Shown: in pieces, positions 41,682-56,662 of the stretch
Position numbering within the stretch: position 1 is the stretch's first letter
How the letters are laid out: each line of letters opens with the position of its first letter
NCBI GenBank assembly: GCA_002698785.1
Contig: PAAG01000047.1
Coordinates: 682,001-746,000, forward strand
Direction of reading: 5' to 3'
DNA: 64,000 nucleotides
Source: Verrucomicrobiales bacterium
GTDB lineage: Bacteria > Verrucomicrobiota > Verrucomicrobiia > Verrucomicrobiales > DEV007
Notes under the pieces: model-generated
Told to the model about the DNA's origin: nothing
The model's database searches: none
Seen by the model: only the letters and a program-made list of their open reading frames with translations
Program-made: the position numbers and the translations under genes

Positions 41682-41695
41682 ATCCTCCACAATTT

Positions 41696-42685
41696 ATGAG
41701 CACCAAAACGAGCGAAGCGGTCTGGAAGGAAGTCCGGGACAAGGTCGAAGAATTAAAATCAGAGACAGCAAGAGTGATTGTCGGTCAGGATGAAATTGTA
41801 GAACAAATGTTGGTATCTCTGTTGTGCCGAGGTCACTGTCTTGTGATCGGCGTGCCAGGACTGGCAAAGACCCTTTTAGTAAGCACGTTAGGAAAAATAC
41901 TGGGGCTGAAATTCAATCGCATCCAGTTCACTCCTGACCTCATGCCCACCGACATTGTCGGAAGCGAAATCCTTCAGGACACCGAAGCAGGAAAGAGAGA
42001 ATTCGAATACATCGAGGGCCCGATCTTCGCCAATCTCATTCTCGCCGACGAGATCAACCGCACGCCACCAAAGACCCAGGCAGCCCTGCTCGAAGCCATG
42101 CAGGAAAAACAGGTTACCGTTGCAGGAAAGAGCCGACGGCTCGAAGAGCCGTTCATAGTCTATGCTACGCAAAACCCTATCGAACACGAAGGTACGTATC
42201 CACTGCCCGAAGCACAACTCGACCGATTCTTTTTCAACCTCCTAATCGATTATCCCTCAATCGAAGAAGAGGAACAGATAGTACGTCTAACAACGGCAAG
42301 AGACTCCCCGACTGCAAAATCAGTTCTCACGCCAGAAGAAGTCATCCAACTTCAGGATGCCACCATTGACGTACCAGTGCCGGACCATGTTCTGAAATAC
42401 ATTCTTAAACTAACCCATTCCTCACGACCGGGTTCCGAGTTTGCCAGCGATTACGTAAACGAATACGTTGCCTACGGCGCAGGCCCTCGGGCTTCACAAA
42501 ACCTGACCAAAGCAGCCCGCGCGCTCGCCCTACTACGAGGCAACCCGACCGCTTCCGTCGAAGAGGTCAAAGACCTCGCCCGCCCCGTCCTTCGTCATCG
42601 TGTGATACCGAATTATAATGCCACTGGAGAAGGAATCTCGGTTGAAGACATCATCGAAACACTCCTGGAGCAAGTCGAAGCCTAA
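41696..42685 (+). CDS. MoxR-family AAA+ ATPase
   Basis: 329 residues from ATG 41696; the longer frame overlaps the previous gene. Walker A is G52-V-P-G-L-A-K-T59, Walker B is LILADEINRTPP with the MoxR-specific insertion, and sensor 1 is YATQNPIEHEGTYPLPEAQL with DRFFFNL. The lid domain ends ISVEDIIETLLEQV. MoxR proteins are cytoplasmic chaperone ATPases that work with VWA-domain partners to activate or assemble envelope proteins. DUF58 follows after 5 bases. This order is the textbook MoxR-DUF58-BatA arrangement. Confidence 0.95.
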   Translation: MSTKTSEAVWKEVRDKVEELKSETARVIVGQDEIVEQMLVSLLCRGHCLVIGVPGLAKTLLVSTLGKILGLKFNRIQFTPDLMPTDIVGSEILQDTEAGKREFEYIEGPIFANLILADEINRTPPKTQAALLEAMQEKQVTVAGKSRRLEEPFIVYATQNPIEHEGTYPLPEAQLDRFFFNLLIDYPSIEEEEQIVRLTTARDSPTAKSVLTPEEVIQLQDATIDVPVPDHVLKYILKLTHSSRPGSEFASDYVNEYVAYGAGPRASQNLTKAARALALLRGNPTASVEEVKDLARPVLRHRVIPNYNATGEGISVEDIIETLLEQVEA

Positions 42686-42690
42686 GTCAT

Positions 42691-43566
42691 ATGGCCGGCC
42701 ATCGTTACCTTCTCCCCGAAGACATCCGCAAACTTCAGACATTTGAGTTTGCAGCACGTGCCGTTGTCGAAGGATATTTGTCAGGACGCCACCGTTCGCG
42801 GTCAAGAGGCTCTTCGATAGAGTTTCACGAATACCGTGAATATACGCCAGGAGACGACTTAAAACTGGTGGACTGGCGTGTCTTCGCACGATCCGATCGG
42901 CACTTTCTCCGGACCTTCGAACAAGAAACAAACCTGGAATGCCACATTTTCCTGGATAGCAGTGCGTCGATGGGGTTCAGCGGTTCGTCACCAATTTCCA
43001 AACTGGAGTATGGCTCCTTTTTCGCCGCAGCGCTGAGCTATCTTGTCATTCGCTACGGAGACCGAGTTTCTCTGCAATTATTCGACGATAAGATAAGGGA
43101 ATTCTTCCCTCCTGGCAGCACCGGTTCTCACCTCAACTTGCTCTTGAACACCCTCGAACGAAACGAGCCAGGAAACGAAACCTCGCTGGCCGAGGCCCTG
43201 CTCCGATCGAAACCACTCCTGAAGAGAAAAGGTATCTTGGTCATCATTTCCGATTTCTTTGACAATCCAGCATCCATTTTCCAGGCATTAAATCCCTACC
43301 TCCACCAGGGCTTCCGAATTCACTTGTTCCACCTTTTGACTCCAGGGGAGCTTGATCTGGAACAACGCGGCCTAACAAGCTACGTAGACCTCGAGGACGG
43401 GTCACGGCTCATTGCCCATCCTTCCGCTCTGCGCCAACGCTACAAGGAGGCTATCGAAGATCATATCTCTTCCTTACGGCAACTCTCCCAGAGAAGATCG
43501 GTTGATTACTCACTTCACCGGACCGACTCCCACTTTTTCCAACTGTTCGACAAGCTCGTGAATTGA
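42691..43566 (+). CDS. DUF58 protein with VWA-type metal site
   Basis: 291 residues. The DUF58 signature lies at residues 30-80 (GRHRSRSRGSSIEFHEYREY, TPGDDLKLVDWRVFARSDR). A VWA-like fold follows with the MIDAS motif D89-S-S-A-S93, and the rest of the fold continues to EAIEDHISSLRQL. Soluble, with no transmembrane segment. DUF58 proteins are the usual link between MoxR and BatA-type partners. Overlaps neither neighbour (5 and 10 bases apart). Confidence 0.93.
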   Translation: MAGHRYLLPEDIRKLQTFEFAARAVVEGYLSGRHRSRSRGSSIEFHEYREYTPGDDLKLVDWRVFARSDRHFLRTFEQETNLECHIFLDSSASMGFSGSSPISKLEYGSFFAAALSYLVIRYGDRVSLQLFDDKIREFFPPGSTGSHLNLLLNTLERNEPGNETSLAEALLRSKPLLKRKGILVIISDFFDNPASIFQALNPYLHQGFRIHLFHLLTPGELDLEQRGLTSYVDLEDGSRLIAHPSALRQRYKEAIEDHISSLRQLSQRRSVDYSLHRTDSHFFQLFDKLVN

Positions 43567-43576
43567 GCCTTCCGAA

Positions 43577-45565
43577 ATGTCTCTCACTTTCCTGAATTCG
43601 AACCTTCTCTGGCTGCTGGCCCTCGCTGCGGTTCCGGTTTTGCTACACCTCTTTGCACGTACTAAGCCTCCCACCTACCAGTTCAGTTCTGTCGAGTTTC
43701 TTCGGAGAATCGTAAAGAAAACCATGCGGTTCAAGAAGCCACAGGACATCCTACTCCTGATACTCCGCACTATCGCGGTGCTCGCCCTGATTGGCATGTT
43801 TCTGCGCCCGCTTTTATTCACCCAGGAAAAGCTCTCGGGACTGTTTCAGCAGAAGAACCTTGTAGCTATTGTCGATGCCTCCGCCTCCATGGCATATGTT
43901 GAAGGTGCCCAGACTCGTTTCGCCACGGCATGCGCAGAGACCAGCGAACTCCTTTCAGGACTATCATCACGCGACCGGGCCAACGTCATCTGGTTGAAAG
44001 CAGAACCCGAATCCGTTTTCCCGGATGAGCTTGGTGAAAACCTCAGCTACCTTAAGGACCAACTCCGACGCGCATCGGTGACTTCCGAACGTGGAGCTAT
44101 AGACAAGGCATTCTCCCTGGCGGCGAATTTACTCGCTGAATCAGAAGGAACCCGCGAGATCTGCGTTATTTCCGATTTTCAGCGCAGCGCATGGGAAGAA
44201 TACAAACCATCTCTTCCTGAAGGTGTCGATCTCATTCACGTCAAGATAGGGCGAACCGAAGCGCCAAACCATTCAGTCAGCAGTCTTTCCTTCGAACCTA
44301 GTCATCCTGTGGTGGGTGAGAATCTCTCGCTGTTTGCCGAAATAACCAATTTCTCCACCCTTGACACTGAGACAACTGTATTCAGCGAAGTCGGAGAAAG
44401 TCGAAAGTCCAACAACCTATCCCTAGCCGCTGGAGAAACAGCAAACGTTACTTTTCATCATCGCCTCACGAACCCCGGTCCTGCGACAATCCGCATATCA
44501 ATCGCAGAAGATGCTTTCCCCGGAGATGACACCCGTATGCAATCTGTGGAAGTACGGCCGTTCTTGCGAATTGGAATTCTTGCAGGGGACGACAAAGCAA
44601 CCGCCAGACTCTGGACGAGAGCAACTCAATCACTGGGATGGGCAGTCCCCGAATGGATCACAATTGAGGACCTTGAAGAATCTGCAGACAGATTCGATGC
44701 TGTATTTCTGGCAGGAGTGCCGATCGAGAATCCCACATCTATCCCGACTAGCACCAAGGTCGTAGTTCAGCCGCCCATTGGCGAACAATCCCGATTACTT
44801 CCGGACCAATCGGAAACTGAGACGATCGTGGTTTCAAAAGAAACATCGAAAGGAAAACCCTATCAGTTACAGATCTCGGATTCCGAGGCGTCTCTTTTCG
44901 ATGTGTTCCGAAGCGGCGAACATGGTTCGATAGACGGCCTCGGAGGAAGAGAGCGAATAGTGCTCTCCAATCCGCCCGGGAAATCCACCCTTCTTTCATT
45001 CACTGACGGAAAACCGGCGTTCGTTCAACTGGCACCAAATCGCTACCTATCATTCCTACCTCTTGAGGAGGCGAGTGGCAATCTCGCAGGAAGAGTCGAG
45101 TTCGTTCCTTTTATTGCTGAACTCCTTTTGTCCGATCGTAGCACTGGAAACACCTCAGAGATCGAGATAGACCACGAACCAGGCGAGGCCGCATTCTGGA
45201 GCCCTCAAACCCCGATCGGTTCTGAGAATCTAAAACTCACCAAAGGAAAGCTTGAGATTCCGTTTCAACCGAGCGAGGCCGGCAGCTTCCGAACAGACGA
45301 ACTTTCCGAGCCGGGAATCTATGAGTGGAGCTTGAATGATCGAGCTGTGGGATATTCTATAGTGAACTTTCCCGTGTCAGAATCGAACCTCGCCGCGCTG
45401 TCCCCAGAAGAAGCGCAAGAGTCCTCCTCCGTGCTCGTCAGCGGAGGGAGGGAACTACGCTACCTGAGAGATGGCATAAAGATGTGGCCCTGGTTACTGG
45501 GAATCGCCCTCTCGGCCGTACTACTAGAAACCGGCGTCACCCTTTGGGCGGCGAAAAGTCCATAA
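43577..45565 (+). CDS. BatA-like VWA membrane protein
   Basis: 662 residues. The BatA/aerotolerance N-terminal domain covers two membrane helices (NSNLLWLLALAAVPVLLHLF and ILLLILRTIAVLALIGMFLR) with FARTKPPTYQFSSVEFLRR between. A VWA domain follows with MIDAS D100-A-S-A-S104. A long periplasmic part with immunoglobulin-like stretches (HPVVGENLSLFAEITNFS, GPATIRISIAED) and a C-terminal membrane helix (MWPWLLGIALSAVLLETG) complete it. The role is probably as an adaptor between the MoxR ATPase and periplasmic clients. Stop and next start are 16 bases apart. Confidence 0.93.
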   Translation: MSLTFLNSNLLWLLALAAVPVLLHLFARTKPPTYQFSSVEFLRRIVKKTMRFKKPQDILLLILRTIAVLALIGMFLRPLLFTQEKLSGLFQQKNLVAIVDASASMAYVEGAQTRFATACAETSELLSGLSSRDRANVIWLKAEPESVFPDELGENLSYLKDQLRRASVTSERGAIDKAFSLAANLLAESEGTREICVISDFQRSAWEEYKPSLPEGVDLIHVKIGRTEAPNHSVSSLSFEPSHPVVGENLSLFAEITNFSTLDTETTVFSEVGESRKSNNLSLAAGETANVTFHHRLTNPGPATIRISIAEDAFPGDDTRMQSVEVRPFLRIGILAGDDKATARLWTRATQSLGWAVPEWITIEDLEESADRFDAVFLAGVPIENPTSIPTSTKVVVQPPIGEQSRLLPDQSETETIVVSKETSKGKPYQLQISDSEASLFDVFRSGEHGSIDGLGGRERIVLSNPPGKSTLLSFTDGKPAFVQLAPNRYLSFLPLEEASGNLAGRVEFVPFIAELLLSDRSTGNTSEIEIDHEPGEAAFWSPQTPIGSENLKLTKGKLEIPFQPSEAGSFRTDELSEPGIYEWSLNDRAVGYSIVNFPVSESNLAALSPEEAQESSSVLVSGGRELRYLRDGIKMWPWLLGIALSAVLLETGVTLWAAKSP

Positions 45566-45581
45566 AATAGCCTTCACCGAA

Positions 45582-47825
45582 TTGAACTTTGATCGCTCCA
45601 TCACCCTGAATCCTCCTTTCTCTACTCCTCACATGGTGCTGCTTTTCGTGGCGCTGACCATTCTGCTCGGATGGGTTGCGTGGAAGAGCACCGACCGCTT
45701 ACGCCCCACTACCCGGTTTGCGGTCGTATCGTGCCGAGTGCTTCTTGGCATGGCCCTTCTTGTTTTCGCGCTAAACCCGGGCCGCTGGATAGAGAGTGGT
45801 GAGGAAACCACCCTTTTCTGGTCAGTTCTAGCCGACAACAGCCAAAGCATGGATACCAAAGACGCTCCTGGCGACCTTTCGCGATGGGAGACGGCAACCA
45901 AGCTTGCTTCACAAACACTGGAAGGAACAGATTCACCGAATCAAGCCGATTTCTTTGCATTCCATGCCGATTTGATCCCCGTCGAGGAAAAGGAGTTTTC
46001 ATCCCTCTCTCCTGATGGCGAACAAACGGATCTCGTTGAGGCAGCAGACAGCCTTCTCACGCTCGCGCGAAACCGAAGCGGAAAGTTTAAAGGCAGCATC
46101 GTGATCTCCGACGGAAGGCAAACCATAAAAACCCCTGACATGGAACGAATCGCTCTGCGTGCACGAGCGAGTGAATCGCCCTTTTATATCCTACCGGTCG
46201 GAGGAGAGGTAAAACCTGTCGACTTAATACTCGAATCGACACGCCGTCAGTTTGTTGCTTTCGCCGGACAGGAAACCACAGTCTCCGCGAGAGTCTCCGC
46301 GCAAGGACTGGGTCCAGTACGCCCGGTGATTGAGCTACACGGGCCTCAGGGAGAAGAAATCGAAACGCGTCAGATCGAATTATCGGGCGACGAAGAAAGA
46401 GAAGTCCGCTTCACCTTCCCAGCCCTTCCAGCAGGCGTGCACCTGCTTGAGTTCCGCACGAGTGAGTGGCCTGGAGAGAGAGTCACTTCTAACAATTCGC
46501 AATCCTTCACCCTGACCGTTCTCGACGGCACCACGAAGATATTCATGGCCGAAGGCGTTCCATATTGGGACTCAAAGTTTCTGGCTCAGATGATTCGCAA
46601 CCAGAAGAACATGGATATCACTTCTGTCTATCGGCTTGCCAGCGACCGCTTCTTCCGAGTTGCAACTGGAGACGAAAGGCCTGCCGAAGAATCAGGGAAC
46701 ATCTTCCCGGCTTCGATGGAAGATCTCAGTCAATACGACATTATTGTTTTCGGGAAAGGCGCTGAATACTTTCTTGATGAATCACGGCTCGCACTGCTCA
46801 ACGAATATGTTCGCGATCGTGGAGGAGCCGTTCTTTTTACCCGCGGGAAACCCTACCGATCTACGTTTGAAGGTCTTGAGTTTCTTGAACCAGCGACTTG
46901 GGGAGATCGCATTCGACAACCACTTACTCCCCAACCCACGTCGTCGGGTGAAGCGGCAGGATTGTTTGGCGATCTCCTTCCCGGCATCGGGGATCCAGTT
47001 TGGCAGGAATTACCTTCGCTACAGGAATCATATCAGTGTCTCGAATTGAAATCCTTTACCGAAGTGCTTCTGGAAGGCAGATGGAGCCTCGATGGAAAGG
47101 AGCAAACTGTCCCTTTGCTCATGAGTCGCCGCTTTGGTCGAGGAATGACCGTCATGCTAAATGCAGACGGACTTTGGCACTGGGACTTTTTTCCGTCAGA
47201 CAGGGGAGTCGAAGGTCAGTACGAAGAATTCTGGGGACAGCTTATTCAATGGGCGATCACGTTTTCCGAATTCCTCCCTGGTCAGGACCTCTCCCTTAAC
47301 CTCGACCAGTCAGTCGTTCGTCCCGGAGAACTGATTGGGGCTCGAATCGGCTTTCGCGGAGAAAGCACGGAAGAGTCGCCTGCCAATCCCGCCATTCGAA
47401 TCATTCGTGAAGACAAAGTAATTCGTGAGGTTCCGGCAGCCAGGCCTTCAGAAACATCTGTTCGGTGGGAAGCCGGAATTACGCTCTCCGAGCCGGGCAA
47501 CTATCGCATTCAGGCATTCAATGAAAGTGATCCGGAGAAACCCGGGCCAAGCCTACCAGTAACAGTGCTTCCCCCTCCGAGCGAAACAGACGAGCTGAGC
47601 GCAGATCCCGAATTCCTGCGCGCTTTCGCAGAACTATCTGGTGGCCGTCTCATCGAAGAGCACGAGATTTCGGAGATTGTCTCGCTACTATCGACACGCG
47701 AGAAGCAGATAGAGCGCTCAAAAGCTGTATGGGATCCTGCGTGGGATCATTGGTGGTGTTTTTCGATCGTTCTTTTCATCGCCTCTGTAGAATGGTTTAC
47801 TCGCAGAAGGAGCGGATTGCTATGA
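45582..47825 (+). CDS. VWA membrane protein with glutamine-amidotransferase-like fold
   Basis: 747 residues from a TTG at 45582; the first ATG (45633) would cut into the first membrane helix. Two helices near the N-terminus (VLLFVALTILLGWVAW, RVLLGMALLVFALNPG) precede a VWA domain with MIDAS D85-N-S-Q-S89. Ig-like strands (VDLILESTRRQFVAFAGQET) and a class-I amidotransferase-like segment (QYDIIVFGKGAEYFLDESRL, GGAVLFTRGKPY) follow, and a C-terminal helix near WWCFSIVLFIASVEWFTRRR ends it. No catalytic Cys for glutamine hydrolysis is apparent. Its stop overlaps the next start by ATGA. Confidence 0.88.
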   Translation: MNFDRSITLNPPFSTPHMVLLFVALTILLGWVAWKSTDRLRPTTRFAVVSCRVLLGMALLVFALNPGRWIESGEETTLFWSVLADNSQSMDTKDAPGDLSRWETATKLASQTLEGTDSPNQADFFAFHADLIPVEEKEFSSLSPDGEQTDLVEAADSLLTLARNRSGKFKGSIVISDGRQTIKTPDMERIALRARASESPFYILPVGGEVKPVDLILESTRRQFVAFAGQETTVSARVSAQGLGPVRPVIELHGPQGEEIETRQIELSGDEEREVRFTFPALPAGVHLLEFRTSEWPGERVTSNNSQSFTLTVLDGTTKIFMAEGVPYWDSKFLAQMIRNQKNMDITSVYRLASDRFFRVATGDERPAEESGNIFPASMEDLSQYDIIVFGKGAEYFLDESRLALLNEYVRDRGGAVLFTRGKPYRSTFEGLEFLEPATWGDRIRQPLTPQPTSSGEAAGLFGDLLPGIGDPVWQELPSLQESYQCLELKSFTEVLLEGRWSLDGKEQTVPLLMSRRFGRGMTVMLNADGLWHWDFFPSDRGVEGQYEEFWGQLIQWAITFSEFLPGQDLSLNLDQSVVRPGELIGARIGFRGESTEESPANPAIRIIREDKVIREVPAARPSETSVRWEAGITLSEPGNYRIQAFNESDPEKPGPSLPVTVLPPPSETDELSADPEFLRAFAELSGGRLIEEHEISEIVSLLSTREKQIERSKAVWDPAWDHWWCFSIVLFIASVEWFTRRRSGLL

Positions 47826-50653
47826 GCGTGGAAAACAAGAAGCCTGAGAAGTCGCATCCGCCGGATTCGCCGCCGGATGCGAGCTTTTACCGATCACGGC
47901 TTTCCGCTTTTCTCGCGACCTGGCGATGTGGCCTACTCCTGTCCACCGTTTTCCAGATCGCCGCGATCTTCCTCCTTGCATTACTCATCTATGCATCCCT
48001 CGACTATTTCCTCGCTCTTGGCAGTCAGACACGGTTCGTCTTGGGAATTCTCCTTGTGGCTGGAATATGTATCGGGTTAATCGGAAAGTCCTTCGGTATC
48101 TTCCGCCTTGGAAAAGACGACATAGCCAGACGTGCAGACTTGGCCTCCACTCGAAAGCGTAAGCCAGTTCAGAGTGCCCTGGAACTTCTTAGCGAGAAAC
48201 CTCACGGCACTTCGAAGTCATCAGGCCTGCACGAATACTTGATCCACAGGTCTGTCACCGAAGCCAACTCAACCCTGCAAAGCCTGACGTGGAGGTCCGT
48301 TTTTCCCGCCACGGAATTTCGACGATCCGTCGTACAACTTTTAGGTATCGGAGTGGTTTTCTTCCTCCTCTTTTTTGCCCTTCAAACGATGGCAACAGTT
48401 CTTCTCTCGCGCATCGCCACACCATGGAAAGACATCCCCCCCTACAGTCCGCTGAGCTTCGCTGTTTCCCCGGAGACACCTGAGATTTTTTATGGCGATG
48501 ACGCGACCGTTGCGGTTGAAGTTACCGGAGCTCCTCTAACCGAGCCAGTACGCTTTCTGACCCGCGACGGTGACAAGATATTCGAGACAGTCTGCTTCCA
48601 AGATGGGCCAAATCGTTTCGCTCAAAAACTCGAACGCGTCGTCAAGCAGACGGAATTTGCATTCGCCCATGGCAAGGCTCGAAGCCACTGGCACAACATC
48701 GACCTCCTCCTCGAACCAAAAATCGCTATCGCATCCGTCACAGTTATTCCACCTGACTATGCAAACCTTCCTGAAAGAACATTCCTCATTGGCGAAGAAC
48801 CTCTAGCAGCTCTTCGCGGTTCGAAAATCAAACTTGCCGTGACCAGCAATCGCCCCCTTTCGGCCGGAGAGGCAACTCTCTACCCTGTTGGCAAGTCGAG
48901 CGCTCAAGGGAAGGGAATAGAGGGAGAAAAGACAGCATTGCAAACCGTTGCATTTGAGTGGGAGGCAGAAGTCGAATCCACACTCGAGGTCGAGATCCGA
49001 GATGTAAGGGGATCACCGAACCGTGAACCGCTTCTCATTTCTCAGAGACTAATTCCTGACAAAGCACCTGAACTCTCAATTGAGAAGCCTCCTGTCCATC
49101 TCATGGCTACCCCTTCCATCTCCTTCCCGATTGAAGCCCGTGCAGAAGACGATCTTGGACTCGCGCGCGTCGATTTGGTTCGTACCGTGGTAGGGTATCG
49201 TGACCGATTGGAGAACATAACCCCCGCAGGTAACTCCCGAAGATTGGACTACGAAACGGAAATGGAGCTTTCTACTATCGGAGTCCGTCCCGGTGAAACT
49301 ATCGAACTTTATTTCCAGGCTACAGACAGCAATCCCTCAATGGCCGGAATCCCCGCCTCCGAAGTCGCGCGAGTACAGATCATTTCGAACGAAGAGTATG
49401 CCAGTATCATTCGCTCGCGAACCACCATCCGTGAGTTTGCAGACAGGTTTCGAGTTGTGAACAAAAGCCTGAATGAATTGGGCGAGGCCATGGAAGATCT
49501 CGCCGAAGCACAGAAATCGGGCGATGCCGACGCTATCGCGAAAGCCCGTCAAAAAGCAACTGAAGCCGCTGCTGCAGCCTCTTCCCTTTTCGACCTACTT
49601 TCGAAGGATTTCGCGGCTTTCGATCTGGAGAAAAATGCCATCGAAGGTGCCGCCGAAACACTCCGGCAAATACGAGAGATACAGAAGACGCTTGAAGAAA
49701 GCACTCCATCGCCGGAAGCGCTCGCACGTATGCTGGAGACGCTGGGCCGAAAGCAACAGGAGTATCAGGATCGAAAAGAAAATGCTGAGGAAGTCGCAGC
49801 AGTCGCCGAGTTGATGGAAATAGCAGCAGAGTTCTCAGAAATTGTCCGCGGACAAGAAACCCTGACACGTAGATTAAAACAGTTCGAAATGGAGACACGC
49901 AGTGCGCATGTTCCGTTTCTCCAAGCCTTGGGGAAAGACCAAAGCACACTCAAAGATCAACTGGAGAATTTTGAAAAAGCACTCGGTGAACGCATCTCGA
50001 AAATACCGGCAAACTATGACTCCCTGGCTGAGAGTGCCCGCGCCTTCTTAAACGAAGTCATGAAAGCACGCGCGGACGTCGACATGGAAACTTCTTCCGA
50101 CGCCGCCGGAAATGAAGACGGAGCCAAGTCCTATCGATACAGCTCACTAGCCCTCGAAAAGCTGAATGCTCTTCTTAGTCAGAATGGAGACGGCCAAGCT
50201 TTCTGCAAACTCTGTGAAGGACAGATGCAGTTCCCCGTGCCGAGCGAGCTTGAAACAACGCTTTCGCAGATGCTAAGCTCTATTTTCCTACGCTCGGGTA
50301 GCGGCAACGCATCCGGCACAGGAAGTAGTGGCCTTGGAACGGGAGGCGATTCATCGGATGGTTACTCTATGGCTGGCTTCTCGGCCCTCGATATTCCAGT
50401 CATCGGTCCCCAGCGGATGCGCCTCGACTACCAGTCCAATACCCAATTATCGGAGGATACCTCAAGTTCAAACCAAAACTCTGGACCTGTGGCAGAATCG
50501 CCCAGCGAATCGGAACGCTTTGAAAACACTACCAACCTTCAACCCACCGCCTCTCCCCTCGATTTCGACCTTGTTCCCGAACAGTATCGAGACGCAGTGA
50601 AACGTTACTTCACATATAAGAACCTGAACGATTCCCAGCAAGTAATCCCATGA
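47822..50653 (+). CDS. DUF4175-like coiled-coil membrane protein
   Basis: 943 residues from ATG 47822, which shares ATGA with the previous stop. Two close membrane helices near residues 35-85 (CGLLLSTVFQIAAIFLLALL, TRFVLGILLVAGICIGLIGK), a third near 160-190 (VVQLLGIGVVFFLLFFALQT), then a large periplasmic region with Ig-like strands and a long coiled coil (about 540-720) rich in Glu/Lys/Ala. A single CxxC (CKLCEGQM) and a Gly/Ser-rich linker precede the C-terminus. The overall layout matches DUF4175/TIGR02302-type envelope proteins. Overlaps the DUF4159 start by ATGA. Confidence 0.85.
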   Translation: MSVENKKPEKSHPPDSPPDASFYRSRLSAFLATWRCGLLLSTVFQIAAIFLLALLIYASLDYFLALGSQTRFVLGILLVAGICIGLIGKSFGIFRLGKDDIARRADLASTRKRKPVQSALELLSEKPHGTSKSSGLHEYLIHRSVTEANSTLQSLTWRSVFPATEFRRSVVQLLGIGVVFFLLFFALQTMATVLLSRIATPWKDIPPYSPLSFAVSPETPEIFYGDDATVAVEVTGAPLTEPVRFLTRDGDKIFETVCFQDGPNRFAQKLERVVKQTEFAFAHGKARSHWHNIDLLLEPKIAIASVTVIPPDYANLPERTFLIGEEPLAALRGSKIKLAVTSNRPLSAGEATLYPVGKSSAQGKGIEGEKTALQTVAFEWEAEVESTLEVEIRDVRGSPNREPLLISQRLIPDKAPELSIEKPPVHLMATPSISFPIEARAEDDLGLARVDLVRTVVGYRDRLENITPAGNSRRLDYETEMELSTIGVRPGETIELYFQATDSNPSMAGIPASEVARVQIISNEEYASIIRSRTTIREFADRFRVVNKSLNELGEAMEDLAEAQKSGDADAIAKARQKATEAAAAASSLFDLLSKDFAAFDLEKNAIEGAAETLRQIREIQKTLEESTPSPEALARMLETLGRKQQEYQDRKENAEEVAAVAELMEIAAEFSEIVRGQETLTRRLKQFEMETRSAHVPFLQALGKDQSTLKDQLENFEKALGERISKIPANYDSLAESARAFLNEVMKARADVDMETSSDAAGNEDGAKSYRYSSLALEKLNALLSQNGDGQAFCKLCEGQMQFPVPSELETTLSQMLSSIFLRSGSGNASGTGSSGLGTGGDSSDGYSMAGFSALDIPVIGPQRMRLDYQSNTQLSEDTSSSNQNSGPVAESPSESERFENTTNLQPTASPLDFDLVPEQYRDAVKRYFTYKNLNDSQQVIP

Positions 50654-51300
50654 GATACCTACTATCTATTCTATTTGCCCTTTGCCTTATCGGCGTTCCC
50701 AAAACCCGAGGCGACGATGGCGTCATCCAATGTGCAAACCTGATCTACGCAGGGACAAAGACGTCTCGATGTTTCAGCGATCAGTTTCTCACGACGATGC
50801 AGCAGAAAACGGCGATCCCCGCAGAGCGCCGCTTCAGGAGTGTTAAACTCTCTTCGGACGAGTTATTTGATTATCCATTTGTCATGATGACAGGAGAGTC
50901 TTCCTTTTTTCTATCCACGAAAGAACGTGAGAATCTCCAGCGCTATCTGGAAAATGGAGGCTTCCTTTTAGCTTCCGCCGGGTGCTCGAACAAAGACTGG
51001 AGTCGATCATTCCGCGCAGAAATGAAAAAGATGTTCAACAAGGAAGCTCTCGAAGAGATACCGATGGAACACCCCCTCTTTCGCACGGTCTACACAATCG
51101 ATAAGCTTGAGTTATCAAAGAGCAGCGGCGAGGCATCCCTCGAAGGGATCGAGATCGACGGCAAACTCGTTGTTGTCTATTCCGAGGAGGGGCTGAACGA
51201 CACTTCCAACCGGGCCGGATGCTGTTGCTGTGGAGGCAACGAAATCAAAAACGCAATGGAGGTAAATGTAAACATTCTCTCCTACGCCCTACTTTATTGA
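50650..51300 (+). CDS. DUF4159 exported protein
   Basis: 216 residues with a signal peptide (MRYLLSILFALCLIGVPKTRG). The DUF4159 core is visible (IQCANLIYAGTKTSRCFSDQ, SDELFDYPFVMMTGESSFFL, LENGGFLLASAGCSNKDWSR), with EMKKMFNKEALEEIPMEHPL later. The C-terminal region has four consecutive cysteines (GCCCCGGNEIKN). DUF4159 resembles a glutamine-amidotransferase-like flavodoxin fold and accompanies MoxR/VWA operons. The Cys cluster suggests metal or disulfide chemistry, in line with the redox domain of the next protein. ATGA overlap with the previous gene. Confidence 0.88.
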   Translation: MRYLLSILFALCLIGVPKTRGDDGVIQCANLIYAGTKTSRCFSDQFLTTMQQKTAIPAERRFRSVKLSSDELFDYPFVMMTGESSFFLSTKERENLQRYLENGGFLLASAGCSNKDWSRSFRAEMKKMFNKEALEEIPMEHPLFRTVYTIDKLELSKSSGEASLEGIEIDGKLVVVYSEEGLNDTSNRAGCCCCGGNEIKNAMEVNVNILSYALLY

Positions 51301-51319
51301 GTTGAGTCGTTGCTGCTCG

Positions 51320-54300
51320 ATGGGAACTTCCCGCTTCATCACCTTTGCTGCCGCCCTGGCATTTCTTACCGCCTCCGGTCTTTCGGCCCCATCGACAGGA
51401 TTAGATTCCATTCGCTCGCAATCTGAGGAAATGATTCGGGAGAGCGCACTAAGGGATTCTCTCTCCTGGTACGACGATTTGGATAACGCTCTGGGCGTGG
51501 CCAAAGAGGAGTATCGCCCTGTCGTGGTTTTCTTTTTCAGCTCAGCCGATGGGTGGAGTGCACGAATGCGTGCTCAAGTCTTTTCCGACGAGTCGGTAAA
51601 GCGGCAGATGGAGCACTATGTCAGGGTTGAGGTAGCTGTTGAGGAAAATGAAGAAACTGCAGCGAACTATCTGGTTCGCGGCATCCCTGCGATTCGCATA
51701 CTCTCTGCAGAAGGCCGAGCCCTCCAAGGCCGAGATGGATTCGTCGGAGCCCCTCAATTAATTCGAATGCTTCGATCCGCGTTAAACGCGGAATATCTGA
51801 AACAGACCGACCCCGGATTTCAGGAGCTCCTCACAAAGCTGGAAGCCAACACGATCTCAACAGAAGATTGGCATGAAATCATGCTAAGCCTCGGCGAGCC
51901 ACAGAAACGTGAACCGCTTCGAAAGCTCGTTCTGAAACTGGAGCCATTTCCCCGAGCCGAGCTGGTTAAGCTACTCTCTGATTCCCGTCTCGCTGTTCGG
52001 TTAGGAGCGATAGAGCTATTGGAAGAGTTGGCAGGCAGCGATTTTGGATTCGATCCGTGGATGGGTTCATCCGCCGCCTCTGGAAACGAAGCCTCTCTGG
52101 ACAAATGGAATGACTGGCTGGGGAGCTCCGACAGTGCCGGTGTCAAATCCATCTACAGTGTTCTCACCGAGGAGCAAATTTCGTCTTACCTTCGTGATAT
52201 TGTCAGCGGAAACCGGGAACGCTCTGTCCGCGCAAGCAGAATGCTTCGAAACGGAGGAAGCAACACAGCTCGATCCCTTCTGTCCTTCCTTGAAAACAAC
52301 CAGGAGATAGCCCCGGCAGCCCGCAATCGAATTCGTGAACTCTACTACTCCCTCACCGTACCAAGTGTATCGGGAAGCGCCCCGGACACCATTGCTCACC
52401 GGTTGATTTTCGGGAATCTGGATTCCAGACTCGAAACCATCACGGAACTAAAGAATGCCGGGCCAGCAGCAACGCCAGTTCTCAGTGATTTTTTGAACGA
52501 TGAAGATCCGCTCATCCGCGAAACATCCATCGACGCGCTTCTTACCGCAGGCGGGGCGAACTCGATTGGCGTCGTCCAGGAACATCTGAAACAAGAAGAC
52601 GACAACGATGTGGTCATTGCTGCTCTTCGAACCATCGGAGTAAATGAAATCCGGAACAGCTCGACCCTGGTCGCAAAGTATGTCGATCACGAGGAAGAAG
52701 ATATTGCCATCATGGCTTTAGAAAGCTTGGGAGCGTTAAGGGCACAGGACCAATCAGATGCGATCGTAGCGAGTTTGAAAGACGGCCGTTGGCGTGTGCG
52801 AGTTGCTGCCTTGGAAGCCCTTCGTCGCTTCAAAGAATCCCAGTATGCCGATGATGTAAGACCTTTGTTAGATGACCCCGACGAATTTGTTCGCGTGGCT
52901 TCAGTACAAGCGATCGCAAGCATGGACGACACCGCAGCAACGCCCAAGCTTGTTCAGCTTTACAAAAAGCATCCGGAGACACGTGGCCCGGTAATCAGTG
53001 CTTTGTTGTCCATGAATCAGCCTCTCCCTGAGAGTTTGAAGAAAGATCTCCGTGCCAGCGAACCTGATGCGCTCCTGTCAGTAATCGATGCAGTCGGACA
53101 GGAAGGCGGTGAAAACGTGGATATCATTACAGAGTTCGTGGAGCACGAAAACCTCGATGTCGCGTGTGCTGCAATACGCGTCGTCAGTAACAATGGAATG
53201 TCTTTCTCATCCAACCAAGAACTGATCTACGAAGTTCTAAAGGAAGGGCAACCGGAAAAAGTCGAAGCGGTACTCGACTCCTTGGAATTTGAAGAGGCTC
53301 AATACCAGCAATACAGTCGACGGTTCACATCCAATCGTCCTGCTCTCAGCAGACCTCCCGAAGTTCAGGCAATCTTCGACTCGTTCTTGCAGCGCCCGGA
53401 GTCATCTTCTTCTCTGGGATCGACCGATCCCCTCATTGCTGTTTTCGAAGCAATCGAACCTTATCTGAGAAAAAGTTACGACGATTCTATCCGCCATAAC
53501 TCCTCCGTGATACTCACGAAGGCAGGAAACCCGGACGCTGTTGAACAATTAAAAAAAAGCCTAATCTCACAAAGCGTTTCCGAACGAAAACGTGTAGCCG
53601 ATTCCATGTATCGGGCATCGGACAGCGTATTGCCTATCCTGGTCAGCTTGATGCGTGACCGATCTGAAGATGTCCGCAAAGAAGCTAGTTCAACGCTCCT
53701 CTACCAAGGATCCCGCAAAGAATTTGTAGCTGCCTTTTTTGAAGAGGTTACTCGCCCGAGGGCGCTACTGAAACCATGGGAAACAGACATCGATTATCTG
53801 GACAACGGCGCAGAGAGCGGCCCGTCCAAGGGAATCGCCAATGAAGCCGCAAAAGACATCCTCGAAAGCTCGGGCAGTACTGCCCTTCGCTCTCTCGCCG
53901 CCCTGACATTACGTTTTGGCTGGAACTATGGCGACGAAGAATACCTGTTACCCCTTACAGAAGTGGACGAACCGGAACTAAGGCGCGCGGCCTGGTATGC
54001 TATTGGGGTTAATAGTAAAGAGACGATCCGCGATCATCTTGATACCATCGCAAATGACCCATCAGAAAAAGTGCGAGCGATCCTGCCTTACGTCCTCGGA
54101 AATGAAGACCGGTATTTCGTGCATTACTTTGACTCTGAACACACACAGAGGTTCTGGGATAGCGGACGCGAGAATCTCGACTTCGAGTTTAGCGGGGACC
54201 CTTTTGGTTCTGGTGCCCAGAAAGTGAGACTCGAAGAAGAGGAGATAAAAATCCTACACCAGCTTTCAAGGGATTCGTCACCCGCTGTTCGAATCGACAG

Positions 54301-55714
54301 CTCGTTCCTCCTAATGGCAGCGGGAGAAAAACCTGACGCCGCAGATTTACAATCCACCCTGAGTTCTTTTCCAGATCGCGAGAGCATCCAACAGAGGGTC
54401 AGCGATTATGTAGAAACAAACTTCCGCAATCTCGATCCAAATTACAAATTCCTGCTGAACCACATTGACCCTCAACGCATTTCATCAAGTGAACTACCTA
54501 ACATCTACGCCTATTTTAAGTCTGGACCAAACGACACAGAATCTAATTTTGACTGGAAAGAACGCGCTGACACTCCTAGAGAGAAGATAACCGACAAGGA
54601 AGTCGGACGAACTGGGAGCAGATCAGAAGAACCTTCCGGCGTCGAAATTGTGTATTTCTTCAACCCTGGCTGTAAAGAATGCGCCCGTGTCGAAGAGCAA
54701 CTTGCTGAGATCCAAGCTTCATTCCCCCGACTCTCCGTCTCCAAGCAGAATATCCGTGAAGCCCGGTCCGCACAACTGAATGAGGTTCTCTCGGAGAGGT
54801 TCGGCGTCCCGGAGAAAATCCGAATGGTCGCTCCCGCCATCTTCACAGGTGACGGATATCTGATCAAAGACGAAATCGACTCGATGAGACTCGGCAACCT
54901 GATCGTACGGTCGAGTGCCTCCGGAAACTCCACTTCAGGCTGGTCCGCCCTGAACGAGAAGGATATCGCGACGGCTTCCCAAGCGATTGAGAGTCGTTTT
55001 TCCTCCGTTGGAGTGTTTGTTATTCTCTCAGCTGGTTTCCTCGATGGTATTAATCCGTGCGCTTTCGCTACAATCATCCTCTTCCTGAGCTATCTCCAGA
55101 TAGCACGGCACGGCCCTCGCCAGATTATTATGGTGGGCTTGTCTTTCATTTTAGCAGTTTTTCTCACCTACTTCGCACTCGGTCTGGGCTTGGTCGAAAT
55201 TGTGAGTAGGCTGCAGTTCCTGAAAGGTGCAGGAATGGTTTTAAATGTCATTCTCGCTGGATTCGCCTTGGTCATCATGTTTCTCAGCCTGCGTGATGGA
55301 GTTCTTTGCGTGCAGGGGCGCCTGGCAGACACAACGCTTCAATTGCCCGGCTTCCTGAAAGACCGCATTCGCAAAGTCGCTCGGACCGGAGCAAGGCACC
55401 ATCGCTTCGTCGTTGCCGCGTTTGTGAGCGGAGTGATCATCTCCCTGCTGGAACTCGCCTGTACGGGCCAGGTCTACCTCCCGACAATCAACTACATGGT
55501 CCAAGAGGGAAAAACCTCCGCCTATTTCTTTCTCCTGATCTACAACATCGCATTCGTGTTCCCTCTTCTCGTGATCTTTATCCTGGCGTTTTTCGGGATG
55601 CGAAGCGATGCTCTCATCGCTTTTCAAGCCAAACACAGCGCGGCAATTAAGTTCGCAACAGCAGCACTTTTTCTCGCCCTCTTCCTTTTGCTACTATTCC
55701 AGATACTACCCTGA
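51320..55714 (+). CDS. HEAT-repeat/thioredoxin/CcdA-DsbD-like membrane fusion protein
   Basis: 1464 residues from ATG 51320, with a signal peptide to about residue 24. Domain order: a thioredoxin-like fold (about 45-160; GIPAIRIL holds the cis-Pro, but the CxxC is replaced by SADGWSAR); HEAT repeats (about 190-1080), e.g. EDPLIRETSIDALLTAGG, GRWRVRVAALEALRRFK and DDPDEFVRVASVQAIASMDD; a second thioredoxin with redox-active C1118-K-E-C1121; and a 6-helix CcdA/DsbD-like membrane domain (about 1230-1464) with the paired cysteines C1247 (GINPCAF) and C1381 (LACTGQVY). It could pass electrons from the cytoplasm across the membrane to a periplasmic thioredoxin fixed to a HEAT scaffold. Last gene of the operon. 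Confidence 0.92.
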   Translation: MGTSRFITFAAALAFLTASGLSAPSTGLDSIRSQSEEMIRESALRDSLSWYDDLDNALGVAKEEYRPVVVFFFSSADGWSARMRAQVFSDESVKRQMEHYVRVEVAVEENEETAANYLVRGIPAIRILSAEGRALQGRDGFVGAPQLIRMLRSALNAEYLKQTDPGFQELLTKLEANTISTEDWHEIMLSLGEPQKREPLRKLVLKLEPFPRAELVKLLSDSRLAVRLGAIELLEELAGSDFGFDPWMGSSAASGNEASLDKWNDWLGSSDSAGVKSIYSVLTEEQISSYLRDIVSGNRERSVRASRMLRNGGSNTARSLLSFLENNQEIAPAARNRIRELYYSLTVPSVSGSAPDTIAHRLIFGNLDSRLETITELKNAGPAATPVLSDFLNDEDPLIRETSIDALLTAGGANSIGVVQEHLKQEDDNDVVIAALRTIGVNEIRNSSTLVAKYVDHEEEDIAIMALESLGALRAQDQSDAIVASLKDGRWRVRVAALEALRRFKESQYADDVRPLLDDPDEFVRVASVQAIASMDDTAATPKLVQLYKKHPETRGPVISALLSMNQPLPESLKKDLRASEPDALLSVIDAVGQEGGENVDIITEFVEHENLDVACAAIRVVSNNGMSFSSNQELIYEVLKEGQPEKVEAVLDSLEFEEAQYQQYSRRFTSNRPALSRPPEVQAIFDSFLQRPESSSSLGSTDPLIAVFEAIEPYLRKSYDDSIRHNSSVILTKAGNPDAVEQLKKSLISQSVSERKRVADSMYRASDSVLPILVSLMRDRSEDVRKEASSTLLYQGSRKEFVAAFFEEVTRPRALLKPWETDIDYLDNGAESGPSKGIANEAAKDILESSGSTALRSLAALTLRFGWNYGDEEYLLPLTEVDEPELRRAAWYAIGVNSKETIRDHLDTIANDPSEKVRAILPYVLGNEDRYFVHYFDSEHTQRFWDSGRENLDFEFSGDPFGSGAQKVRLEEEEIKILHQLSRDSSPAVRIDSSFLLMAAGEKPDAADLQSTLSSFPDRESIQQRVSDYVETNFRNLDPNYKFLLNHIDPQRISSSELPNIYAYFKSGPNDTESNFDWKERADTPREKITDKEVGRTGSRSEEPSGVEIVYFFNPGCKECARVEEQLAEIQASFPRLSVSKQNIREARSAQLNEVLSERFGVPEKIRMVAPAIFTGDGYLIKDEIDSMRLGNLIVRSSASGNSTSGWSALNEKDIATASQAIESRFSSVGVFVILSAGFLDGINPCAFATIILFLSYLQIARHGPRQIIMVGLSFILAVFLTYFALGLGLVEIVSRLQFLKGAGMVLNVILAGFALVIMFLSLRDGVLCVQGRLADTTLQLPGFLKDRIRKVARTGARHHRFVVAAFVSGVIISLLELACTGQVYLPTINYMVQEGKTSAYFFLLIYNIAFVFPLLVIFILAFFGMRSDALIAFQAKHSAAIKFATAALFLALFLLLLFQILP

Positions 55715-55732: not shown

Positions 55733-56662
55733 ATGCCCATCCATATCGACCCGTTGTCTCGTCGACGATTTCTGCACCGCACATCGATCCTTTCTCTAGC
55801 AACTACGGCAACTTGCTTATCCGCAGCCGAAGAGAGATACGAAAACTGGGCTCTCCTATCGGATACACACATTGCAGCAAATCCGAGCGAAACGACCGGA
55901 ATGGGAGTAACCATGGCAGGTAACCTGAAACGAGTCGTAGCAGAAGTTCTCAAAGAAAAAGATTCACTATCCGGTGTCATCGTTGACGGAGACTGTGCTT
56001 ATATCGACGGACAACCCGAAGACTATTCGACCTTAGCTTCATTGCTCTCCCCCTTGGAAGAAGCAGGTCTTCCGATCCACTTCACTCTCGGCAATCATGA
56101 CGATCGAGATGTTTTCTACGGCGCCTACAAGAGTCGTGCCGGCTCTTCTCCCGTTGCCAGCAAGCACTGCACTATCATTGAGACAGCTCATGCGGATCTC
56201 ATTCTTCTCGACTCACTCCGATTCGTGAACAAAGTCGAAGGCGAAATCGGCGAAGAACAATTGCAATGGATTACTGCCCGACTCAAAGAAAATCCTGACA
56301 GACCTGCTATTCTCATTGGCCATCACTATCCTCAGGTCGTTCGCACCGATGTGATTCCTGGAGAAAAGAAAATCCCAATCAGCGGCCTAATCGACAGTGA
56401 AGAATTCCTCAAGACTATCGCCGATCACCCATCTGCAAAGGCCTACATTTACGGCCACAGCCACAACTGGACGGTGAAGAAGGACAAAGCCGGCATTCAC
56501 CAGATCAACCTCCCTCCGACTGCATACGTTTTCGATCAAAGCCGTCCCAATGGATGGGTAAAAGCAACCATCGGAAAAAATGGCATGACGCTGAAACTAA
56601 ATGCCCTCGATCCCTCCCACGGGCAAAACGGTGAAATGCATACCCTCGAATGGCGATCGTAA
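55733..56662 (+). CDS. Tat-exported calcineurin-like metallophosphoesterase
   Basis: 309 residues. The N-terminus carries a twin-arginine signal (LSRRRFLHRTSILSLATTA). Metallophosphoesterase motifs appear in order: LLSDTHI, VDGDCAY, TLGNHDDRD, LIGHHYP and YGHSHNW. These supply the His/Asp/Asn ligands of a two-metal site. The substrate is unknown, but Tat export implies a folded enzyme acting outside the cytoplasm. It starts 18 bases after the envelope operon and may be its last member, although its function does not obviously connect. Confidence 0.92.
   Translation: MPIHIDPLSRRRFLHRTSILSLATTATCLSAAEERYENWALLSDTHIAANPSETTGMGVTMAGNLKRVVAEVLKEKDSLSGVIVDGDCAYIDGQPEDYSTLASLLSPLEEAGLPIHFTLGNHDDRDVFYGAYKSRAGSSPVASKHCTIIETAHADLILLDSLRFVNKVEGEIGEEQLQWITARLKENPDRPAILIGHHYPQVVRTDVIPGEKKIPISGLIDSEEFLKTIADHPSAKAYIYGHSHNWTVKKDKAGIHQINLPPTAYVFDQSRPNGWVKATIGKNGMTLKLNALDPSHGQNGEMHTLEWRS

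Follow-up and report, generated by a model that had tools for sequence, protein, structure and literature searches.

A giant protein with two thioredoxin folds, HEAT repeats and a CcdA-like membrane domain at the end of a Bat-type operon in Verrucomicrobiota, and a candidate selenocysteine in relatives of its DUF4159 neighbour

A stretch of 64,000 nucleotides from a Verrucomicrobiales bacterium (GTDB lineage Bacteria; Verrucomicrobiota; Verrucomicrobiia; Verrucomicrobiales; DEV007), comprising positions 682,001 to 746,000 of the forward strand of contig PAAG01000047.1 (GenBank assembly GCA_002698785.1) and hereafter called the window, encodes a giant protein that closes a conserved operon directly behind a gene for a DUF4159 protein. 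The giant combines two thioredoxin folds, a long region with HEAT repeats and a membrane domain related to CcdA and DsbD, while the DUF4159 protein carries a cluster of four adjacent cysteines, the fourth of which is replaced in a subgroup of relatives by an in-frame TGA, a candidate selenocysteine (Sec) codon. The open reading frame (ORF) of the giant is open over 1464 amino acids starting at an ATG; an alternative TTG start at 51302 would add six residues. The features of the giant are as follows (loci and genomes are numbered L and G throughout).

51320..55714, + strand: giant protein of 1464 amino acids with signal peptide, thioredoxin 1, HEAT region, thioredoxin 2 and CcdA-like membrane domain
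51320..51391, + strand: N-terminal hydrophobic segment (residues 1-24), probable signal peptide judging from hydropathy
51407..51814, + strand: thioredoxin 1 (residues 30-165), with D77 and S80 at the CxxC positions (Pfam Thioredoxin_7, E 2.5e-8 for the domain alone; alignment of 60 giants)
51815..54589, + strand: region with HEAT repeats (residues 166-1090; HEAT_2 searched in three consecutive parts, direct matches from about 370 to 920)
54596..54949, + strand: thioredoxin 2 (about residues 1093-1210; model and fold comparison, Grx/Trx Pfam matches in relatives)
54671..54682, + strand: active-site motif C1118-K-E-C1121 (cysteines invariant in 28/28 sequences)
54956..55711, + strand: CcdA/DsbD-like membrane domain, six helices in two halves as read from the model
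55058..55060, + strand: C1247 in DGINPCAFAT, first membrane cysteine (invariant in 28/28, aligned to CcdA cysteine 1)
55460..55462, + strand: C1381 in ELACTGQVY, second membrane cysteine (invariant in 28/28, aligned to CcdA cysteine 2)

An earlier note on this DNA had read the ORF as two thioredoxin folds joined to a HEAT scaffold and a CcdA-like membrane relay, with CKEC at 1118-1121 in the second thioredoxin and the pair C1247/C1381 in the membrane domain. The domain assignment is borne out by Pfam searches, fold comparison and profile comparison, and the cysteines lie where the note had placed them and are conserved in relatives; neither a middle region unlike HEAT repeats nor C-terminal helices of another family without paired cysteines was found. 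The cysteines of the giant are confined to positions 616, 1118, 1121, 1247, 1330 and 1381, the CKEC motif being its sole CxxC.

The C-terminal 372 residues of the giant become readable with the help of relatives. Taken as a single sequence, thioredoxin 2 gave no significant Pfam match (Glrx-like, E 0.037), but among 65 sequences of the family Glrx-like was matched by 46 and Glutaredoxin by 43 at E ≤ 1. When its model was compared with known folds, a designed thioredoxin scored best (Z 10.8, root-mean-square deviation (rmsd) 1.6, 82 residues), and a Thermus thioredoxin reached Z 10.2. As is characteristic of a thioredoxin fold, the domain has a CxxC and a facing proline, P1172, all invariant in 28/28 sequences. 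The AlphaFold2 model of the C-terminal part, with a mean predicted local distance difference test score (pLDDT) of 86.3, presents this fold followed by long helices that are read as six membrane helices; the helices are broken beside C1247 and C1381, and these cysteines are read as lying in helices 1 and 4. The Foldseek and VIA-align 2 lists were filled by thioredoxins and contained no CcdA/DsbD membrane structure, which is uninformative on the membrane fold, the query model having included thioredoxin 2.

The relation of the membrane domain to DsbD and CcdA rests on profile comparison, because the Pfam family DsbD_TM (PF02683) missed the giant in single-sequence searches, both with the window sequence and within its own genome. 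A profile built from the 65 sequences (64 of 78 candidate stretches plus the window; L167 and L187 were dropped by the filter for the NPC motif and CxxC) was compared with 13 DsbD_TM/CcdA segments from the same phylum, from which L312, under the family cut-off, was excluded. This gave an hhalign E of 4.3e-8 with a probability of 94.9 over 200 columns, and C1247 and C1381 fell on both conserved CcdA cysteines; a rough control, for which only two membrane proteins of the window, unrelated to the giant, were aligned, gave E 0.43. Among the relatives themselves, 8/65 match DsbD_2 and 3/65 DsbD_TM at E ≤ 1, the best at about 4e-5. The CxxC pair, C1247 and C1381 are invariant in 28/28 sequences (the window and its relatives) and in 14/14 of a mixed set with short forms, and the NPC motif with an upstream CxxC occurs in 35/35 ORFs that carry the module of thioredoxin 2 and CcdA-like domain, at loci found by protein similarity. 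In the larger alignment the same cysteines are present in 65/65 sequences, a figure that is partly circular because the scan patterns held the membrane cysteines and only rows with NPC and CxxC were kept. By its profile relation and its cysteine pair, the membrane domain is, as judged from the sequence, a member of the DsbD/CcdA transmembrane superfamily.

Thioredoxin_7 matches thioredoxin 1 at residues 50-129 (E 6.8e-7 with the whole protein as query), and the gamma-domain end of the DsbD model PRK00293 also aligns with it (E 6.7e-7). That this first fold lacks the CxxC, as noted earlier, holds for the window protein and not for the family: 23/60 giants keep an aligned CxxC, 27/60 have gaps at these columns, and three of the unaligned giants have CEAC near residue 70-80. 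The missing motif therefore looks like a loss in the lineage of the window, and thioredoxin 2 is the constant redox part of the giant. HEAT_2 matches the whole giant at E 2e-32 in six stretches and its consecutive parts at 8e-11 (166-480), 2e-21 (481-800) and 1e-4, the last being under the cut-off (801-1090), and the strongest stretches lie near residues 370-438, 484-562 and 844-920. The earlier estimate of some 900 HEAT residues is therefore confirmed for the middle, about 370-920, whereas towards the ends HEAT repeats are assumed, since Pfam searches of the separate parts showed no direct HEAT_2 stretch at about 166-355 or 921-1090. A scaffold that brings a thioredoxin, in its reduced form, next to one particular client, as proposed in the earlier note, is plausible.

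A concrete candidate for such a client, which the earlier note does not name, lies directly upstream, where two features are relevant.

50650..51300, + strand: DUF4159 protein of 216 amino acids, probable periplasmic client (Pfam PF13709, E 1.6e-33), with conserved C28, C41, C112 and C191-C194
51220..51231, + strand: CCCC cluster, whose fourth codon is TGA (candidate Sec) in a subgroup of relatives (comparison of DUF4159 ORFs)

Among six upstream families aligned from loci L073-L112 (the 930-residue protein described below being left out), the DUF4159 protein alone has fully conserved cysteine columns: C28 is found in 24/25 sequences, C41, C112 and C191-193 in 25/25, and C194 in 20/20 of those with a letter in the column. 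The best cysteine columns elsewhere reach 20/22 in MoxR (two columns), 19/21 in DUF58, 21/28 in the coiled-coil protein COIL974 and 18/24 in BatA, and no cysteine column of the 747-residue protein reaches 50%. A separate DUF4159 alignment comprised 38 of 39 sequences with a cysteine codon at the fourth position (Cys-type) and the window, with those carrying TGA (Sec-type) excluded. The cysteine set ends in CCCCGGNE, and this exact motif was found in 27/387 genomes of the phylum, in each case at the DUF4159 gene of one of the 34 genomes that have an operon-type DUF4159, defined by a score above 190 bits (the remaining DUF4159 matches score under 115 bits). The nearest structure, PDB 4i66 (Hoch_4089; Z 21.0, rmsd 2.6, 178 residues), has a GATase/ThuA-like fold; this fold is common to both proteins, whereas the CCCC cluster belongs to the window protein only, Hoch_4089 having a single cysteine at the corresponding place. 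We found no paper on DUF4159 or PF13709 in the open-licence literature of PubMed Central (PMC), which does not imply absence elsewhere.

In 12/97 DUF4159 ORFs (10/76 distinct ones) a stop codon interrupts the reading frame where the cluster has its fourth cysteine, and this codon is TGA in 12/12. Beyond it the frame runs on as GG(N/D)EI..SVR(V/I)N(A/S)NI.AYA.LH before a second stop is reached, and over 11 distinct downstream stretches third codon positions vary at 18/19 codons and second positions at 2/19. On the 3' side of the TGA lies a hairpin of seven pairs with a G-U-C loop, in which 93.5% of cells are paired, and both its paired percentage and its covariation score (0.322) exceed the values of each of the 500 shuffles and of every slid version. 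Two further measures are uninformative, namely the count of pairs in which both partners have changed (2), which was reached by 260/500 shuffles, and that of further pair types, reached by 500/500. The hairpin energy averages -6.6 in ten Sec-type stretches against -1.8 in 65 Cys-type stretches (Mann-Whitney, 4e-7). The loop and its distance agree with the bacterial selenocysteine insertion sequence (SECIS) as described in a 2026 review (PMC13188914). Identical DUF4159 stretches were collapsed for the distinct counts and the hairpin energies; the two collections used share genomes (e.g., L155 and L086), and the 97 ORFs are not independent because some loci come from the same genome. The in-frame TGA with a SECIS-like hairpin was observed at L084, L086, L087, L088, L092, L141, L146, L153, L161, L170 and L292, and the TGA also at L155, from Persicirhabdus sediminis KCTC 22039. 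At L167 (Rubritalea profundi) the DUF4159 gene is Cys-type and yet retains the hairpin, as expected around a change from Sec to Cys. A selenocysteine in the giant itself was also considered at L167:7110-11158 and rejected: the ORF is split just before thioredoxin 2 by a frame break, and CKQC continues in the other frame.

SelB scored above its cut-off in 13/24 selected genomes, and a tRNA-Sec of at least 50 bits is present in 12 of these 13, the exception being G004 with 40 bits; three genomes without SelB narrowly pass the 47-bit gathering score for tRNA-Sec (47.2-48.7). All 7/7 Sec-type genomes tested (G039, G146, G165, G172, G155, G261, G223) have both SelB and tRNA-Sec, whereas among genomes without SelB and with a readable DUF4159 the count of Sec-type genes is 0/10. 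The difference between 7/13 and 0/10, calculated by hand and ignoring relatedness, has a chance probability of about 0.007; G270 was left out of this comparison, the stretch examined containing no DUF4159. G223, chosen for SelB alone, proved to be Sec-type, and G261, chosen in the same way, is the source of L170, which was among the Sec-type loci before, so that only G223 is a new case. Table 1 of the 2026 review, which covers 119 families or subfamilies, holds no entry for DUF4159 or PF13709 (PMC13188914). We consider the DUF4159 protein of these relatives a candidate new selenoprotein family, and this is the best-supported of our new claims; if true, such DUF4159 genes would appear truncated in automatic annotation.

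The remaining genes of the operon precede DUF4159 in the window:

38889..41681, + strand: 930-residue protein, first conserved gene of the operon (one Pfam match at E 0.031, under the cut-off; homologues in the same place)
41594..42685, + strand: MoxR AAA+ ATPase, coordinates of the longest ORF, the real start probably lying further downstream (Pfam AAA_3, E 2.8e-61)
42691..43566, + strand: DUF58 protein (Pfam, E 7.7e-43)
43577..45565, + strand: BatA-type VWA membrane protein (Pfam BatA 1.5e-13, VWA_2 6e-10)
45582..47825, + strand: 747-residue membrane protein, weak GATase1-like match (Pfam; conserved neighbour)
47729..50653, + strand: coiled-coil membrane protein, listed with 974 residues but may start further downstream (ORF list; conserved neighbour)

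All genes lie on one strand in the order 930-residue protein, MoxR, DUF58, BatA, 747-residue protein, coiled-coil protein, DUF4159 and, as the last, the giant, and the Bat-operon gene set of MoxR, DUF58 and BatA-type VWA genes is thereby present together as judged by Pfam. In other taxonomic families of the phylum, giants are preceded by the same genes. In a sample of the best 80 of 458 relatives, from records titled Verrucomicrobiales, Opitutia, Lentisphaerae, Kiritimatiellota and others, operon genes were found upstream of 51/53 giants (ORFs of at least 1250 amino acids), the other two beginning at a contig end. ORFs starting at a contig edge were set apart (2/53 giants and 7/27 shorter ORFs), and some of the shorter ones, such as L139, have little upstream sequence. 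A search for the same domain order elsewhere thus recovered giants with the CcdA-like domain across the phylum, in the same operon at 51/51 readable flanks. Of the 27 shorter ORFs, seven lie at contig ends, L167 is a broken giant within the operon, and for the remaining 19 no operon gene was detected; several of these have one to three extra CxxC motifs ahead of the module of thioredoxin 2 and CcdA-like domain. The module is thus a small relay of wide occurrence, of which the giant is the operon-bound version. Split-gene giants had been suspected for the short close homologues L098, L099, L100 and L105 (398-437 amino acids), a candidate explanation that was dropped, no adjacent operon gene having been seen. 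Relays of about 500-735 amino acids, many of them with additional CxxC motifs ahead of the module, were also observed in L173-L192 (except L174, L176 and L177, which are giants), in records titled Poribacteria, Chloroflexi, Anaerolineae, Gemmatimonadota, Omnitrophota, WOR-3 and others. The distribution of the giant is patchy: it is present in 4/33 genomes of the genus of the window, and its C-terminal module was matched in 35/288 genomes of the order, some of these matches being only pieces.

In DsbD, periplasmic alpha and gamma domains flank the membrane domain. The giant resembles it in uniting a membrane cysteine pair and a CxxC thioredoxin domain in one chain, but differs in having six membrane helices (as read from the model), a HEAT region of about 925 residues and two thioredoxins that both precede the membrane domain. 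It would work like DsbD but does not have the domain order alpha, membrane, gamma, and is therefore DsbD-like only in its presumed working. CcdA consists of two three-helix halves with a cysteine in helix 1 and helix 4, and the modelled membrane domain of the giant, like CcdA and ScsB, appears to be built of two such halves with cysteines in helices 1 and 4; unlike these proteins, it is fused to thioredoxin 2 and the HEAT region and has NPCAFAT and ELACTGQVY instead of the classical PCV.P and TPC..P. With the operons for Bacteroides aerotolerance (Bat), the window operon has the MoxR, DUF58 and BatA-type genes in order in common, whereas DUF4159 (CCCC/CCCU) and the terminal thiol relay are additions. 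The open-licence PMC literature yielded no description of the giant or of this operon type, absence elsewhere not being implied.

On balance we lean towards the view that the giant, self-contained and DsbD-like, exports reducing equivalents for a single membrane complex to which it is dedicated, with DUF4159 as its client. Electrons would enter the CcdA-like domain at C1247/C1381 from a cytoplasmic thioredoxin, the presumed donor, and would pass from the membrane pair to the periplasmic thioredoxin 2 (C1118/C1121). From there they would reach the CCC(C/Sec)GGNE of DUF4159, either directly or via thioredoxin 1 where its CxxC is kept. The HEAT region may serve as a docking arm that holds the thioredoxins on a Bat-like MoxR/VWA complex, and the DUF4159 cluster, kept reduced, would then perform redox chemistry or receive a metal from the MoxR/VWA machine. 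The outward direction is proposed because it is established for CcdA and DsbD, and DUF4159 as the probable client because of its position, its exclusive cysteine conservation and the exchange of Cys for Sec. Further points in favour of this view are the profile match to DsbD/CcdA with both cysteines aligned, the invariant CxxC and proline of thioredoxin 2, the operon setting of 51/53 giants, the presence of a giant in 26 of the 34 genomes with an operon-type DUF4159, and the in-frame TGA with its hairpin in genomes that have SelB and tRNA-Sec. A broader version, which we take up tentatively and with slightly more doubt than belief, is that of a Bat-type machine in Verrucomicrobiota whose active subunit, DUF4159, would carry a CCC(C/Sec) centre and belong to a selenoprotein family that the 2026 inventory does not list, and for which the giant would be the private transmembrane reductase and the missing Bat electron path. 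For MoxR/Bat operons, the giant together with the Cys/Sec cluster would provide a hypothesis at residue level of who reduces whom and at which cysteines. The view would fit an old and disputed proposal, namely that Bat proteins reduce periplasmic proteins or export reducing power (PMC3557215).

Several observations weigh against the dedicated exporter with DUF4159 as client. Selenocysteine occurs at metal sites too and so does not by itself prove redox catalysis. Six SelB-positive genomes are Cys-type, among them that of the window, which also has a tRNA-Sec. Deletion of bat in Leptospira biflexa caused no oxidative-stress phenotype (PMC3557215), although the operon there may lack such a giant. 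Among the 26 genomes (of 34 with an operon-type DUF4159) that possess a giant, the CcdA-like domain is present in 20, although in G436 the giant was detected merely as a fragment, on a different contig, and is absent in six; because of these 6/26 the complex can work with another or with no dedicated membrane donor. At L107-L110 and L269 a giant follows DUF4159, and one or more other hydrophobic C-terminal segments, read by eye, replace the CcdA-like domain; in G098 a shorter giant without it (L106, 1193 amino acids) is located apart from the operon (L279). Five further genomes (G489, G494, G110, G108, G138) have no giant, and a fusion of phosphoesterase and multiheme cytochrome adjoins their DUF4159, in which CCCC is kept, while in 3/34 genomes neither partner was seen (G501, G457 and G301, the last with its contig ending about 1.5 kb on).

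The cytochrome thus takes the place of the giant in sister operons, which suggests that the DUF4159 complex is combined with one or the other of two redox partners; for the same reason CCCC was rejected as a strict marker of the giant. Three of the cytochrome proteins match the family UshA_like_PCGU (NF041198) at 222-246 bits, below its 275-bit cut-off, and Cytochrome_C554 as well; the sister-operon protein is a phosphoesterase with a multiheme domain and, in contrast to the giant, has no CcdA or HEAT part in its chain. In a search of 38 genomes at E ≤ 1e-20, eight matched UshA_like_PCGU, none over the cut-off, namely the five of the sister operons, G024, G133 (in its second operon) and, with a weak match, G563; the phosphoesterase part is a common one, because the family also matches 7/14 control genomes. 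UshA_like_PCGU is listed among families with Sec members in Table 1 of the 2026 review (PMC13188914). A small thioredoxin protein with about 80 bits to the profile of the giant is present in G489, G494 and G024 (of the genus of the window), and in the one tested, that of L271, Pfam thioredoxin was present and HEAT was not found. The sister operons were observed at L270, L271, L274, L276, L277, L278 and L280, and the small thioredoxin, resembling the start of the giant, at L270, L271 and L280. For G608, by comparison, the giant sits on a short contig and there is no DUF4159 match.

A rival explanation that we consider unlikely is cofactor insertion, in which MoxR and VWA proteins would act as an insertase, the CCC(C/U) of DUF4159 or its recipient protein would bind a metal, and the giant would keep the ligand thiols reduced. 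CcdA and TlpA-type proteins keep thiols reduced for haem and copper sites. The MoxR and VWA genes share the operon, and four adjacent cysteines are unusual as a redox motif; moreover, NorQ and NorD act in the insertion of the iron cofactor of nitric oxide reductase (PMC9976466), and Table 1 of the selenoprotein review has Sec proteins annotated as metal-binding (PMC13188914). Against this, no conserved metalloenzyme gene was noticed within the operon.

That the giant is instead a general periplasmic reductase, a substitute for DsbD or CcdA in cytochrome c maturation or disulfide isomerisation that stands in the operon by chance, we regard as improbable: separate DsbD_TM proteins are present in the genome of the window and in 8/8 others checked, CcdA-type giants lie in the operon at every one of the 51 readable loci, though one CcdA-less giant (L106 of G098) lies elsewhere, and the patchy presence, with the module in 35 of the 288 genomes of the order, does not suit a general function, while the DsbD/CcdA-like membrane domain and the short forms of the module, which stand alone, would agree with it. 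Still less probable is an oxidant or sensor, with electron flow reversed or with thioredoxins that sense the periplasmic redox state and signal via the HEAT region to the MoxR complex. The absence of an aligned CxxC from thioredoxin 1 in 37/60 giants (27 of them gaps) would be consistent with a binding or sensing domain, or with loss of the motif; but the CcdA/DsbD superfamily is established to move electrons outwards, and the membrane cysteine pair is invariant.

Two observations concern genes beside the operon. At L273:12771-15165, following DUF4159, lie genes whose sequences appear similar to MsrB, MsrA and a SelO/YdiU-like protein. In the window, the gene at 55733-56662, 18 bases past the giant on the same strand, looks metallophosphoesterase-like by eye, and the gene in the place directly after the giant differs among relatives.

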